Positions 14,924 through 37,315 of a stretch of 43,143 nucleotides of DNA are shown here, in pieces. This DNA comes from an uncultured Pelagibacteraceae bacterium (lineage in GTDB: Bacteria > Pseudomonadota > Alphaproteobacteria > Pelagibacterales > Pelagibacteraceae): positions 1 through 43,143 of the forward strand of contig CACIPU010000008.1 of NCBI GenBank assembly GCA_902588625.1, read 5' to 3'. The stretch's first letter is position 1, and every line of letters begins with the position of its first letter. The notes beneath the pieces were generated by a model. The model was not told the DNA's origin and searched no databases. It worked only from the letters and a program-made list of their open reading frames with translations. Made by a program: the position numbers and the translations under genes.

Positions 14924-14991
14924 CTTTAATATGCCTTTAATTTTGTGTTAAAACAAATTATGAATTTAATAATAATTTAAATTTTTTTTTG

Positions 14992-15972
14992 ATGTCAAAA
15001 ATTGCACTTATAACAGGTATTACAGGTCAAGATGGATCATATCTTGCAGAGCTTTTATTATCTAAAGGATATAAGGTACATGGAATAGTAAGAAGAGTAG
15101 CTCTCGAAGATGAAACTCATAGACTTTGGAGAATAAGAGGAATTTTAAAAGATATAAATTTACACGCAGGTTCTCTAGAAAGTTATGCAAGTTTATTTAA
15201 TATAATTTTAAAAATAAAACCTAGCGAAGTATACCATTTAGCAGCACAAAGCTATGTTGGTTATTCTTTTGAAGATGAATTTTCAACCCTTAATATTAAT
15301 ATTAATGGAACTCACTACTTACTTTCTGCAGTAAAAGAATTCGCAGCGAGTAAGGTAAGATTTTATTTTGCCGGATCTTCAGAAATGTTTGGAAAAGTTA
15401 AAACAATTCCTCAAAATGAAAAAACAGTTTTTAATCCTAGATCTTCTTATGGTATATCTAAAGTAACGGGTTTTCATTTAGTAAAAAATTATAGAGAAGC
15501 TTATAATCTTCATGCATCAAATGGAATATTGTTTAATCATGAATCTCCAAGAAGAGGATTTGAATTTGTAACTAGAAAAATATCGCACGCAGTAGCAAGA
15601 ATTAAAAAAGGATCAAAAGAAAAATTAAAATTAGGAAATATAAATGCAAAAAGAGATTGGGGACACGCCAAGGATTATGTAGAAGCTATGTGGTCAATGC
15701 TTCAAAAAGATACTCCAGATGATTATGTTATTGGAACCGGAAAAGATCATTCAGTAGAAGACTTTGCCAAAAAAGCGTTTTCACATGTTGGTTTAAATTA
15801 CAAAGATCATGTTGTGATAGACCAAAAACTAATAAGACCAGCTGAAGTAGATACTCTTTTGGCTGATTATTCTAAAGCGAAGAAAAATTTAAATTGGGAA
15901 CCAAAAATATCTTTTGATGATTTAGTAAAAAATATGGTTGATCACGATTTAGAAAACATTAATAAGATATAA
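14992..15972 (+). CDS. gmd: GDP-mannose 4,6-dehydratase
   Basis: 326 aa from the ATG at 14992; a TTG immediately upstream is also in frame. It makes GDP-4-keto-6-deoxymannose from GDP-mannose, the step before fucose, rhamnose or perosamine. Evidence: ITGITGQDGSYLAELLLSKGY (GxxGxxG), HGIVRRVALEDETHRLW, HLAAQSYVGYSF, the catalytic FAGSSEMFG and SSYGISK (YxxxK), FNHESPRRGFEFVTRKI and NAKRDWGHAKDYVEAMW, all typical of Gmd. No fucose synthase (fcl/wcaG) or rhamnose reductase is next to it, and it lies 6 kb outside the glycan cluster. Confidence 0.93.
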   Translation: MSKIALITGITGQDGSYLAELLLSKGYKVHGIVRRVALEDETHRLWRIRGILKDINLHAGSLESYASLFNIILKIKPSEVYHLAAQSYVGYSFEDEFSTLNININGTHYLLSAVKEFAASKVRFYFAGSSEMFGKVKTIPQNEKTVFNPRSSYGISKVTGFHLVKNYREAYNLHASNGILFNHESPRRGFEFVTRKISHAVARIKKGSKEKLKLGNINAKRDWGHAKDYVEAMWSMLQKDTPDDYVIGTGKDHSVEDFAKKAFSHVGLNYKDHVVIDQKLIRPAEVDTLLADYSKAKKNLNWEPKISFDDLVKNMVDHDLENINKI

Positions 15973-15987
15973 TTTATTATTATATAA

Positions 15988-16110
15988 CTAACCAAATATA
16001 TTAATAATTAAACCAATTAACCCCAAAAGAAAAACGCCTCCAAATATTGCTGCTAATGTTATCGTATATACCAGTTTATCTTTAGGAGTCATTTTATGTT
16101 CGTCGCTCAT
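15988..16110 (-). CDS. Small single-span membrane protein, 40 aa
   Basis: A short but convincing gene: ATG at 16110, TAG at 15988-15990. The N-terminal 13 residues (MSDEHKMTPKDKL) are hydrophilic, followed by one strong transmembrane segment of about 25 residues containing two glycine-rich turns (FGG, LLGLIGL). It is convergent with gmd (15 bp between stops). The composition, with polar N-terminus then clean helix then a short end, is much more protein-like than random AT-rich DNA. I recognise no family. It may be a small subunit of a membrane complex or a conserved SAR11 protein. It lies just outside the left repeat of the proposed tmRNA island. Confidence 0.6.
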   Translation of the reverse strand: MSDEHKMTPKDKLVYTITLAAIFGGVFLLGLIGLIINIFG

Positions 16111-16225: not shown

Positions 16226-16250
16226 GGGGGCGTTCTGTTGCCCGTGCCTC
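16226..16250 (-). repeat. Direct repeat copy A: partial duplicate of the tmRNA coding-piece 3' end (candidate att site)
   Basis: The 18-bp core GGGGCGTTCTGTTGCCCG (16227-16244) is identical to 18203-18220. With a one-base difference on either side the similarity extends to about 25 bp (GTGCCTC here, GGTGCCCC there). In copy B the outer GGGGC can pair with GCCCC. Here the corresponding GAGGC no longer matches, as expected for a non-functional leftover. G+C content is far above the surroundings. Confidence 0.7.
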
Positions 16251-16330
16251 TAAATTTTATAAAATTATTCATATTATACGCTATTATTCCCTAAAAAAAA
16301 GCACAACTTAAAATAGTCTTTCCGTCAGTA

Positions 16331-16343
16331 TTACCTTTGGTAA
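16331..16343. repeat. Perfect inverted repeat upstream of the autotransporter gene
   Basis: TTACC-TTT-GGTAA, a 5-bp dyad with a 3-bp centre, ends 11 bp before the ATG at 16355 and 44 bp before the alternative ATG at 16388. It could be an operator or an mRNA hairpin covering the start region. No regulator gene is adjacent. Confidence 0.35.
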
Positions 16344-16354
16344 ATTTATGATAA

Positions 16355-18202
16355 ATGATTGAAAAAAGTTTTATAAATAAAATTTATATGATCCAAATTT
16401 TAAAAAATTTTATACTCATTTTTTTTCTATATTTTTTAATTATAGGTTCGGCCTATTCAGAAAATATAACAGGAGCCAACACGATAAATAAAGATAATAC
16501 CACTCAAAAGAAATTCAATGCCGATGACACATCTTTAACAATTACTAATTCCGCAACTTTATCATTAAACGCACAGCAAACCGTACATATCAACGCAAAA
16601 GATGATGGAACCTTAACAGTTGAATCCGGTTCCTCAGTTACATCCACAGGTTCAAATGCAGTTCAAGGAAAAGATCAATCAGGTTTAACTATAACTAACT
16701 CAGGAACTATTAGTGCTGATGGTTCTAAAGCCATTAATTTGTTAAATGCCGAAAGCTCTACAGTTACAAATAACTCTGGAGGAGTTATTAAAAGTAATAC
16801 TAATACTATTACTTTTACAGAAAATTCTGGTACCGCCAATATTGCAACAATAAATAACTCCGGAGAGATTTATGCTGAAGCAGCTAGTTCAGGAACCACA
16901 TCTAATAATGCTATCAGATCTGAGGATGATACAGACAATGTAATTATAATCAATAATTCTGGAGGACATATCCATAATAATAATACCTCAAGCACTGCTT
17001 TACAATCAGCAACAGTCTTTGTTTCTTCTGCATCGACTGGAACGTTTACAAATAGTGGTAAAATAGAAAATAAAGGTGGTGTTAACACATTCGCAATTGG
17101 AATAGCCGGAAGTGGAGTCACGGTTACTTTAAAAGATAAAGGAAAAGTAATAGGTAAAATTAATGTAGCAGATTCAGGTCACACTATTAAATTACAACAC
17201 GGAGTTGGTCAGGGTTATTTTTATGAAATAACAGGTAATGGAACTTACAGTTTACAGGATTTAGATGGAAACCCAGTTATCAAAGGTTCAGCAGGATCGA
17301 TTGGTCAAGGTGCTAATGAAATGATTGATGAGGTACTAGGATATAAATCATTAAGTTTGAGGAAATCAATTACTCGATTTAAACAAAGCGATGAATATTT
17401 TAAACAGGGAGAAGGTTGGGGTGAAATAACTACATCATTTTTAAAAAGAGATGGAGAGAATAGTTCTTTAAAACTTGGTAGTGAAACAATAGGAATTGGG
17501 GCAAATATTATTCAGCCAATTTCAAAAAATAAAAATATTATTGTATCATTAGAGACTGGCTCACTAAATATTTCTCAAGATCACGATATTGATAAGTTTA
17601 GTCTCTTAACAGGAATATACTTTGACAAAATTGAAATTAGTGAAAATATAAATTCAGAACTATATCTATTAGGGGGAGCTGGCTATAATAAAAGTGACAG
17701 AAAAATTTTAACCAATACAACAACAAGTGGAGAGTTAAACATTACAGATTCATATGAAAATTATGAGTTTTTAATCGGAAATAAGATAAACCTCAATAGT
17801 TTATTTCCAGATGTAAGTTTAAACTTTGGCTACTCACACACGCCATCACATGAAGAAAGTAAATATTTTAAATGGGAAGAGAAAGATATTTATAATGGTT
17901 CCATAGCCTTAAGTGATGAGTATGAAATAATAAAAAATAAAAAAACAAATTTTTATTTATCGTGGATAGCCGACGCTAGATCTGTAATAGATGACAATGT
18001 ACAAATTTTTTATGCAAATGGAACCAAGGGATCTTACTATCAGAATAATGATTTAAAAAAGGAACTAAGCTTATCTACTAGTTTAAATTATGAGTATAAA
18101 TTTTCAAAAAATAACACTTTTTCAATGGCACTAGATGGACTTCAAACAAGTCAAGACACAAGCGGAATTCAAGCAAATTTGGTTTATAAATATAAATTTT
18201 AA
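16355..18202 (+). CDS. Autotransporter-like outer membrane protein (adhesin-type)
   Basis: 615 aa from 16355. A start at 16388 (MIQILKNFILIFFLYF...) would give a cleaner signal peptide ending near GSAYS-EN, and is equally likely. Residues about 40-280 are a low-complexity Ser/Thr/Asn/Gly passenger with repeated strand-turn units such as LTITNSGTISADGSKAIN, ATINNSGEIYAEA and IIINNSGGHIHNN, as in beta-helical passengers. After a linker (NEMIDEVLGYKSLSLRKS), the last 260 residues look like an autotransporter beta-barrel: GWGEITTSFLKRDG, alternating amphipathic strands, and a terminal LVYKYKF with C-terminal Phe as required for outer-membrane assembly. Its stop codon abuts the tmRNA 3' end. Probably a variable surface structure; target unknown. 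Confidence 0.8.
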   Translation: MIEKSFINKIYMIQILKNFILIFFLYFLIIGSAYSENITGANTINKDNTTQKKFNADDTSLTITNSATLSLNAQQTVHINAKDDGTLTVESGSSVTSTGSNAVQGKDQSGLTITNSGTISADGSKAINLLNAESSTVTNNSGGVIKSNTNTITFTENSGTANIATINNSGEIYAEAASSGTTSNNAIRSEDDTDNVIIINNSGGHIHNNNTSSTALQSATVFVSSASTGTFTNSGKIENKGGVNTFAIGIAGSGVTVTLKDKGKVIGKINVADSGHTIKLQHGVGQGYFYEITGNGTYSLQDLDGNPVIKGSAGSIGQGANEMIDEVLGYKSLSLRKSITRFKQSDEYFKQGEGWGEITTSFLKRDGENSSLKLGSETIGIGANIIQPISKNKNIIVSLETGSLNISQDHDIDKFSLLTGIYFDKIEISENINSELYLLGGAGYNKSDRKILTNTTTSGELNITDSYENYEFLIGNKINLNSLFPDVSLNFGYSHTPSHEESKYFKWEEKDIYNGSIALSDEYEIIKNKKTNFYLSWIADARSVIDDNVQIFYANGTKGSYYQNNDLKKELSLSTSLNYEYKFSKNNTFSMALDGLQTSQDTSGIQANLVYKYKF

Positions 18203-18227
18203 GGGGCGTTCTGTTGCCCGGTGCCCC
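18203..18227 (-). repeat. Direct repeat copy B: 3' end of the tmRNA coding piece
   Basis: Core GGGGCGTTCTGTTGCCCG at 18203-18220 equals copy A at 16227-16244. On the minus strand this is the terminal GGGGC...GCCCC hairpin or pseudoknot of the tmRNA, with intact pairing. It begins directly after the autotransporter stop codon. Confidence 0.7.
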
Positions 18228-18420
18228 AGACCGCGCTTTCTTAAATTAATTAAGCAGCGAGAGCAAATTTATCATTTGCAATTATAATTAGCCCGTTACG
18301 TCGGAACAATCTCGAACGAAAGAACAGCCTTTAGACACTCGTCGATTCTAGTTCACCCCCATAAGTTGTAAATGGTGGAGGTGGGCGGTACTGCCCCGCC
18401 GTCCGCAATGTTTATTACGA
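18203..18420 (-). ncRNA. ssrA: Two-piece (circularly permuted) alphaproteobacterial tmRNA
   Basis: Read on the minus strand. The acceptor piece comes first: ACATT (18411-18407), GCGGAC, a T-like arm GGCGG/CCGCC (18400-18396 with 18388-18384), CACCTCC and ACCA (end 18373). A 12-nt intervening segment (18372-18361) follows. The coding piece then begins GGGGGTGAACTAGAATCGAC (18360-18341), the classic tmRNA 5' sequence. GGGGGTG pairs with CACCTCC (7 bp, one G-U), and AGTGT (18339-18335) pairs with ACATT. The tag frame is 18279-18250: ANDKFALAA then TAA, ending in LAA as needed for ClpXP recognition. The G-rich 3' hairpin ends at 18203. tmRNA rescues stalled ribosomes with SmpB. The outer ends are estimates. 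The T-loop GGCAGTA departs from the tRNA consensus. Confidence 0.93.
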
Positions 18421-18438
18421 AATTCGTTTATCGTCATA

Positions 18439-18486
18439 GTTGGAAAACCAACACTAATAATATAAAACTTTATTCTAAAGATTCAA
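18439..18486 (-). promoter_or_regulatory. Probable tmRNA promoter and 5' leader hairpin
   Basis: Minus strand: -35 TTGAAT (18486-18481), 16-bp spacer, -10 TATATT (18464-18459). Transcription would start near 18452, right at a perfect hairpin GTTGG-TTTT-CCAAC (18452-18439). The acceptor piece lies about 30 nt further on, so the hairpin would be in the leader removed during maturation. The same 78-bp gap must also hold the divergent thyX promoter (TATAAA at 18461-18466). Confidence 0.4.
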
Positions 18487-18498
18487 TTTATAAATTAA

Positions 18499-19446
18499 AT
18501 GACACTAACAAAAGAGCAAAAAAAAGAAATAATTGAGCAACAATCTCAAAAAAATACTACAAAACGTGTAACTTCTCCTGAACTAGAGAAAGTTTTATAC
18601 GAAGCTATTCCAGTGCTAGACCATGGCTTTGTAAGAGTGGTTGACTATATGGGTGATGATAGTTCAATAGTTCAATCAGCTAGGGTCTCTTATGGAAAAG
18701 GTACAAAAAAAGTATCAACAGATAGTGGTTTAATTAAATATTTAATGAGGCATAGACATAGTACTCCATTTGAAATGTGTGAAATAAAATATCATGTAAA
18801 GCTACCAATATTTATAGCTAGGCAATGGATTAGACATAGAACAGCAAATGTAAATGAATACTCAGCAAGATATTCTATATTAGACAAAGAATTTTATATG
18901 CCAACAAAAGATCATCTAGCTGCACAATCAACTAGTAATAGGCAGGGTAGAGGAGATTTAATTAATGGCAAGCAAGCAGATGAAATTTTAAATATTTTAA
19001 AAAAAGATGCTGAGCAAACTTATGATAATTATGAATTAATGCTTAATGAAAGATTCGATGGAACGATTATAAATGAAAGTAATAAAGGGTTAGCTAGAGA
19101 ACTGGCTAGAATGAATCTTACTTTAAATACTTACACGCAGTGGTATTGGAAAACTGACTTGCTGAATCTTTTAAATTTTTTATCACTTCGTGCAGATAGT
19201 CATGCTCAATATGAAATAAGAGCTTATGCGGATGTTATGATTGATACTCTAAAAAAATGGGTACCAATAACTTTTGACGCTTTTATGGATTACAGAGTAG
19301 GTAGTTTAGAATTATCTGCTAAAGGTAAGTCTGTAATTCAAAAAATGATTAAAGGTGAAAAGTGTGATTTTGATTCTTCCTCTCTTTCAAAACGAGAGTG
19401 GAATGAATTAATGGAATCATTCGGTTTTAAAGAAAAGATACTTTAA
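18499..19446 (+). CDS. thyX: FAD-dependent thymidylate synthase
   Basis: 315 aa. It converts dUMP to dTMP using methylenetetrahydrofolate and FADH2, replacing ThyA. The ThyX signature RHRx7S is at residues 112-122 ([11 protein letters not shown]), preceded by FIARQWI and followed by ARYS, and [10 protein letters not shown] earlier contributes to the FAD/dUMP site. [30 protein letters not shown] is the conserved C-terminal helix pair, as in other ThyX proteins. The N-terminal extension of about 30 residues is hydrophilic. The 3' end overlaps the opposing mrp gene by 20 bp. Confidence 0.95.
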
Positions 19447-36058: not shown

Positions 36059-37315
36059 ATGCATGAAGATAGTGAGTCAAAGTCTTCAATAGGAGTAATT
36101 GGAGCTGGAATACAAGGCGTTTGTATCTCTCTTTGCCTTATAAAAAAAGGATTTAAAGTAACGTTAATAGATAGAGAAGATCCTGGTAAAGCATCAGCCT
36201 CTTATGGAAACGCTGGCCATTTTTCTCCTTATTCATCTGTACCTATTAATAGACCAGATATATTAGTTGATGTTCCTTCTATGCTATTGAGCTCAACGGG
36301 TCCTTTAGCCTTGAGATGGAATTATGTACCAAAAATGATTCCATGGTTTTTAAAATTCATAAAAAATTGTAGCAAGAAAAAAATGTTACATACTGCAAAA
36401 TATATGCATCAAATTTTAGATTTAGCTTTACCAGCATATGATGAACTTTTTAAAGATGTCGATGTATCAGGACTAGTTGAAAGTAAGGGAATACTTTATT
36501 TTTGGACAGATAAAGATTTAAAAAGCAGGGAACTAGAAATTAATATTAGAAAAGAACTAGGAGTAGAACAACAACTTCTTAAACCTCATGAAATACACGA
36601 TCTAGAACCAAATATTAAACCAGTTTATCATGGAGGAGTATTATACCCTAGTGCTCGACACGCAAGAAATCCAAAAAAAATTTTATTGAAACTTTTCGAT
36701 GCATTTTTAGCACAAGGAGGTAATTTTAATAAACAAGAAGTAAAATCAATTAGCTTTGATGAAAATAATAAACCAATAATTAAAACTGAGTCAAATTTTT
36801 ATAAATTCAACAAAGCAGTTATTTCGTGTGGGGCTTTTTCTAAAAAAATAACAGATACATTAGGTGAAAAAATACCCTTAGAAACAGAACGTGGCTATCA
36901 TGTTCACTTCAAAGGTTTTGATAATCTTATTACTAGACCAATAATATTTTTAAACAGGGGATTTGGAATTACACCAATGGAGCAAGGATTAAGAGTTGTT
37001 GGTACAGTTGAGTTTGGAGGATTACAAAATCCACCAAGTAAAAAAAGAATAAAAAATCTAGTCGATAATGCAAATTATCTTTTTCCACAATTGAAAGAAC
37101 ACTATGATGAATGGTTAGGTTTTAGACCAACTTTGCCAGATTTTTTGCCAGTTATTGGACCCTCTAAGAAAAATAAAAATTTATTTTACTCTTTTGGACA
37201 TCATCATCTTGGATGGACTCTAGGTGCGATTTCGGGCAAGATTATTTCAAAATTAATTGCTGAAGAAAAAACAAATTTAGACTTATCTCCATATAACTCT
37301 TTAAGATTTAGTTAG
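36059..37315 (+). CDS. DadA-like FAD-dependent D-amino acid dehydrogenase
   Basis: 418 aa. FAD motif GVIGAGIQGVCISLCLIKKG with the acidic LIDREDPGKASASYGNAG (the SYGNAG segment is typical of DadA). Further landmarks are SKGILYFWTDKDL, GGVLYPSARHARNPKKIL, CGAFSKKITDTLGEKIPLETERGYHVHF and RPTLPDFLPVIGPSKKNKNLFYSFGHHHLGWTLG at the C-terminus. It would oxidise D-amino acids or related amines to keto acids, feeding the respiratory chain. A TATAAT at 36037-36042 could be its -10 box. The next gene, an EamA transporter, starts 8 bp later and is likely cotranscribed. Confidence 0.85.
   Translation: MHEDSESKSSIGVIGAGIQGVCISLCLIKKGFKVTLIDREDPGKASASYGNAGHFSPYSSVPINRPDILVDVPSMLLSSTGPLALRWNYVPKMIPWFLKFIKNCSKKKMLHTAKYMHQILDLALPAYDELFKDVDVSGLVESKGILYFWTDKDLKSRELEINIRKELGVEQQLLKPHEIHDLEPNIKPVYHGGVLYPSARHARNPKKILLKLFDAFLAQGGNFNKQEVKSISFDENNKPIIKTESNFYKFNKAVISCGAFSKKITDTLGEKIPLETERGYHVHFKGFDNLITRPIIFLNRGFGITPMEQGLRVVGTVEFGGLQNPPSKKRIKNLVDNANYLFPQLKEHYDEWLGFRPTLPDFLPVIGPSKKNKNLFYSFGHHHLGWTLGAISGKIISKLIAEEKTNLDLSPYNSLRFS

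Follow-up and report, generated by a model that had tools for sequence, protein, structure and literature searches.

The end of the SAR11 tmRNA gene (ssrA) is a docking site for successive one- or two-gene packages. Positions 16227-18220 of the window, by which we mean the whole 43,143-nucleotide stretch of DNA analysed here, very probably represent one cassette of an ssrA-targeted additive island that extends across the SAR11 family and was built by an integrase mechanism.

The window carries an exact 18-bp repeat, GGGGCGTTCTGTTGCCCG, in two copies (Table 1), with none expected in shuffled sequence; its 16-bp core occurs in only two places in the whole assembly, both of them the window repeats. 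The coding piece of a permuted tmRNA gene ends, on its 3' side, with the right copy, to which the conserved 3' segment of the RF01849 model, GCACCuGGCAACAGAA, aligns. The left copy reaches only 12.5 bits against RF01849 and reads GAGGCAC at the position where ssrA has GGGGCACC, so that it is one base short and no longer has an intact outer stem, while the core is kept. A weak tmRNA match in the window's own genome (G000:C7) looked unrelated. Between the repeats there is a single large ORF. Its structure model is autotransporter-like, and its stop codon (18200-18202) directly touches the right repeat. In its description of the locus, identical 18-bp repeats around a single autotransporter-like gene, the right one being the tmRNA 3' end and the left one an orphan with mutated outer pairing, the original prediction is thus borne out. 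The target gene is restored at one end and its displaced 3' fragment stands as a direct repeat at the other, as in genomic islands, and the unit lacks the integrase that ssrA and tRNA islands carry within them: the autotransporter gene stands alone between the repeats.

Table 1 Features of the ssrA hotspot in the window
Feature	Position	Strand	Basis
gmd (GDP-mannose 4,6-dehydratase), conserved anchor on the downstream side of the hotspot	14989..15972	+	comparison of genus loci
40-aa small membrane-protein ORF past the distal site, marking the old junction throughout the genus	15988..16110	-	conserved in the genus
Repeat copy 2, putative displaced and degenerate distal attachment site	16227..16244	-	exact 18 bp; family PWM score 34 bits, against 68 bits for the ssrA copy
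Distal flank; arm-type direct repeats in other cassettes, none found here	16245..16354	.	arm-repeat scan
Cargo autotransporter, 615 aa	16355..18202	+	only large ORF between the repeats; structure model, homologues
Permuted (two-piece) tmRNA gene ssrA	18200..18490	-	RF01849, 217.3 bits; ARAGORN tag ANDKFALAA
Repeat copy 1, ssrA coding-piece 3' end, putative ssrA-side attachment site	18203..18220	-	exact repeat; RF01849 3' segment
thyX, conserved upstream anchor of the hotspot	18499..19446	+	comparison of genus loci

The predicted structure of the 615-aa product comprises a signal segment, a beta-helix, a linker helix and a 12-strand barrel (mean pLDDT 84.9), and the best PDB matches of the model in Foldseek are EstA, AaaA, NalP and EspP. 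As modelled, the cargo has the features of a type Va autotransporter, namely signal peptide, beta-helix passenger, linker helix and 12-strand barrel; a Pfam search returned no family up to E = 1, and so no autotransporter-domain match. Since homologues align from about residue 6, the start may sit slightly further in. The gene is missing from the other 22 members of the genus, and homologues are found in 43 other family genomes. A 70%-identical autotransporter in another genus (G228) is itself a cassette, the third from ssrA, bounded by sites and provided with arm repeats. Homology between the two runs from about 16293 to the autotransporter stop codon, after which G228 has about 80 bp with arm repeats and the window has the core directly; a scan of the window cassette for arm repeats found none on either side. 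With its arms lost and its distal core decaying, the window cassette is probably an old, worn member of the array, fixed or no longer mobile, and, as it has neither arms nor integrase, we infer its integration from that of its relatives. The 3' end of tRNA-Ser is a second hotspot, where autotransporter homologues occur with tRNA 3' copies of about 60 nt (L157, L168 and L175); in G123 and G258 the homologue lies between tRNA-Ser and a copy of its 3' part.

Comparison of the ssrA-gmd interval, as the original prediction had suggested, revealed relatives without the insert as well as relatives with unrelated cargo. The hotspot of the genus is flanked by mrp-thyX-ssrA on one side and gmd-tal-pntB-pntA on the other. 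(i) Empty sites. In G019 (L034), of the same genus, gmd follows ssrA after 307 bp with no large cargo, and a further degenerate site-like sequence precedes the 40-aa small ORF; the sister family has uninterrupted sites (L061, L063 and L067). (ii) Alternative cargo. Other genus members carry different genes at the hotspot, over about 1.7 to more than 9 kb, and the distance from ssrA to the 40-aa ORF conserved in the genus ranges with the cargo from 115 bp to 5.6 kb, in keeping with an old junction that inserts displace. (iii) Stacked cassettes. The 64 inter-site intervals have a median length of about 1.0 kb, with one ORF of at least 80 aa in 30 and two in 14, and 90 of the 107 cassette ORFs of that size are antisense to ssrA. 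A second class (n=12) has a small ORF in the ssrA sense that starts 7-46 nt after the core. In one locus (L144, in G211), mini-cassettes of 240-490 bp follow one another; the majority have one small ssrA-sense ORF a few nucleotides past the core and are possibly read from upstream. Different cargo stacked in this way, each unit bounded by a repeat of the target gene's 3' end, is the organisation of an additive flexible genomic island. Inverse-autotransporter barrels recur as cargo in five genomes; other cargo includes an acyltransferase/SGNH protein, a DNA methyltransferase, an Mrr-like nuclease and a superinfection-immunity-like protein, and no integrase is among the Pfam matches listed for 82 representative cassette ORFs. 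The idea of a minimal cassette that swaps an autotransporter at ssrA stands as regards ssrA-targeted insertion, but the cargo is open-ended instead of autotransporter-specialised and up to eight copies are stacked; that all relatives might carry the same autotransporter, which would have told against an island, is not what the genus shows.

The repeat is a family-wide feature. The motif is present in 253 of 297 family genomes, with at least two copies in 142, at least three in 72 and at least five in 19, up to a maximum of eight; a reversed control pattern gave no match in any of the 297. A weight matrix built from the repeat was used to scan the ssrA loci of relatives, all oriented with ssrA forward, and picked out 41 copies belonging to ssrA itself plus 55 additional ones beside an ssrA. 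Throughout the loci scanned, every one of the 55 lies downstream in the ssrA sense, none upstream and none reversed; the matrix found 18 further copies in stretches without a recognised ssrA. In the sister family, ssrA ends in a 3' sequence of its own (...CAACAGAAGTCTCCC), present likewise in the extra copies there, which indicates that the repeats follow the ssrA of their host. On one contig (G091:C1; L152 and L153), ssrA 3' repeats at 399933, 400984 and 434358 are separated by about 290-325 kb from another copy, at 109369, and could be secondary sites or the outcome of a rearrangement. Another contig (G096:C8; L146) stops at a repeat copy (site 36306-36321; contig end 36324), which is what differences between coexisting strains at this point would produce.

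Attachment-site arms, in the form of direct repeats spaced by 11 bp, survive in about half of the cassettes. Proximal flanks contain repeat pairs, nearly all with a spacing of exactly 11 bp, in 30 of 64 cases (null mean 3.9), and distal flanks contain pairs at 10-15 bp in 31 of 73 (null mean 4.9). The ssrA-side pairs lie about 50 bp from the core, and similar repeat sets occur on the distal side. Arm sequence varies by cassette (GACGCA, GGGCACA, GGACTCA, GATCACA and others) while the core is constant. Judged by sequence, a core with arms spaced at 11 bp is the layout of tyrosine-integrase attachment sites, and integrase-bearing SAR11 elements at tRNA-Met and tRNA-Arg likewise present the tRNA end, 11-bp-spaced arms and then the integrase start. 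At ssrA, one intact integrase was found among the genomes searched: in G247 an integrase ORF directly follows ssrA (PF00589, 1.8e-19), with arms TGGCGTCA in two copies (TGGCGTCATGGTGGCGTCA); the G247 contig stops at 9013, with the element incomplete. It is a tyrosine recombinase, not the serine-recombinase DsiB/DsiA module of Dehalococcoides. The original prediction had noted the absence of an integrase; this is correct between the window repeats and usual for the cassettes, but does not extend to the G247 element. In G098, a broken N-terminal fragment after the ssrA arms resembles an integrase start.

In viral and genome contigs, the pattern of core plus integrase returned only the G098 relic among SAR11 matches, and an integrase profile search of viral contigs found no relatives. 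In viral contigs, the 16-bp core matched only phage tmRNA-like 3' ends or apparent chance occurrences. A tmRNA-like sequence terminates with the same 3' hairpin in eight viral contigs (L074-L077, L080, L081, L083 and L086); pelagimyophages are known to have complete tmRNA genes (PMC9004378). Most family genomes encode one conserved Xer-like tyrosine recombinase of 304-334 aa, 57-66% identical to the copy in the window's genome (L177:5958-6872, G000:C2; homologues at L179-L181, L183-L185, L188, L191 and L192), which scores far below the XerC/XerD cut-offs and gives 21-31 bits against the integron-integrase model TIGR02249 (cut-off 265), short of an IntI-type enzyme. It is not the simplest candidate, because the sister family has ssrA repeats yet only stronger, different PF00589 genes, mostly two in place of the Xer-like one. 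The window's own genome has a second integrase of 424 aa about 300 bp after tRNA-Cys (L178:5493-7139, G000:C7), which is a separate integrated element.

Cassettes are transferred horizontally. For one encoding proteins of 238 and 286 aa, identity between G117 and G128 is 97.2%, against 82.9% in their mrp-thyX core, and another shared cassette segment is 95% identical against 81% in the core; between G117 and G143 the relation is the opposite, with 97.2% identity in the core and 81.9% in the cassettes. Cassette identity above core identity shows that integrase-less cassettes move between species, and the distribution of the autotransporter, in G228 and at tRNA-Ser, shows it too. This bears on the possibility that the cassettes are dead remnants of larger integrase-bearing elements, which lost the integrase in place and were never mobile as small units. 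The integrase-start fragment of G098, the one intact element of G247, the degenerate sites and cassettes that, like the window's, have no arms would all fit such decay, but arm-intact, integrase-less cassettes that are about 97% identical across species over an 83% core, and at different array positions, do not, and we consider this account unlikely, if still worth keeping in mind. Ordinary homologous recombination at conserved flanks or repeats, with the repeats as by-products of cargo swapping, is improbable: SAR11 recombines often and repeats of 18-36 bp could help deletions, but the compared cassettes move without their flanks, the repeats occur downstream only and in a single orientation, and arm sites are present. 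We give very little credence to the left copy being an independent conserved RNA element, a terminator or sRNA with no tie to integration, which the original prediction had named as grounds for abandoning the island. The left copy folds better than most shuffles (z -2.2); when flanks are included, the fold of minimum energy is not the GGGGC/GCCCC hairpin. Against an RNA element, copy number and position vary by genome, the sequence tracks, family by family, the local 3' end of ssrA, and Rfam gives no confident match (STnc220 reaches 27.9 bits, with the cut-off at 60). An assembly artefact or chance repeat is scarcely credible: the window belongs to a 44-contig draft assembly, but no such repeat is expected by chance and the same pattern recurs in the single-contig genomes G024 and G082 and in G098.

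By analogy, the overall architecture of the ssrA-targeted additive island is already known from Dehalococcoides, Methylopumilus and Actinomarinales. The ssrA islands of Dehalococcoides share with the SAR11 locus a tandem layout downstream of ssrA, copies of the ssrA 3' end (about 20 bp) and variable cargo, but many contain a serine recombinase module (DsiB) and insertion is in the T-loop region of ssrA (PMC3146451), whereas the SAR11 units are about 1 kb, integrase-less, equipped with tyrosine-type arms and targeted to the 3' hairpin of a permuted ssrA. In Methylopumilus fGI-2, with cassettes of 330 bp-42 kb (PMC10872708), and Actinomarinales fGI1 (PMC7771536), the final 20 or so nt of a tRNA gene recur and, as in the SAR11 array, mark stacked cassettes of mostly unknown genes; the SAR11 island differs in its ssrA target, its presence across a whole family, its arms, and the documentation of a same-site integrase and of cassette transfer. 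Tycheposons, described as elements of 4-200 kb that contain a tyrosine recombinase (PMC10872708), likewise position their cargo at tRNA-type genes, and their hosts too are streamlined marine bacteria. The window unit, at 2.0 kb, with one gene and no recombinase, falls outside that class. Cis-mobilizable elements (CIMEs), decayed ICEs that are moved by accretion, also keep att sites without an integrase and need a helper; the SAR11 cassettes resemble them in both respects of site and missing integrase, but are far smaller and stacked in numbers. Integron arrays offer a further likeness, in one-gene units between recombination sites and, for a minority SAR11 class, a small sense ORF near the site. 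The SAR11 array, in contrast, has no integron integrase, double-strand attP-like arms where integrons have attC sites with R'/R'' boxes, and an ssrA-derived site, and a 2007 study found no integron-like attC sites in SAR11 hypervariable regions (PMC2217521). New here are the family-wide scale, the kb-size integrase-less units with arms, the candidate integrase and the permuted-ssrA hairpin target; our search of open-licence papers found no description of ssrA cassettes in SAR11.

We propose a model in which a lambda-type tyrosine integrase would act on a core of roughly 25 bp, GGCACC[T/G]GGCAACAGAACGCCCCT, recombining the copy carried by a circular element with the identical sequence in the 3' hairpin of the permuted ssrA. 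The incoming copy would rebuild ssrA while the old 3' end is pushed off as the distal repeat, and repeated events would stack cassettes, with the newest adjoining ssrA. The stretch AACAGAAC, with inverted GGGC/GCCC around it, would be a suitable place for the crossover, and the integrase would most likely be supplied in trans by related integrase-bearing elements. An integrase acting in trans, a circular intermediate and a benefit from the cargo, through surface change or phage defence, are the parts that we infer. More speculatively, and with slightly less confidence than would make it the probable reading, the ssrA and tRNA-Ser 3' ends may be public docking sites in a decentralised system of kb-size, integrase-less cassettes with diverse arms, moved in trans by rare helper integrases.

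SAR11 are the most abundant bacteria of the ocean and combine very compact genomes with enormous strain diversity. With a defined site, a core, arms and a candidate integrase, how they trade accessory genes becomes a testable question. The cargo, which includes outer-membrane barrels and O-antigen acetylase-like, superinfection-immunity-like, DNA methyltransferase and restriction-endonuclease-like genes, suggests a role in evading phages. If the public docking sites are real, the most streamlined bacteria of the ocean would gain an integron-like exchange of surface and anti-phage genes.
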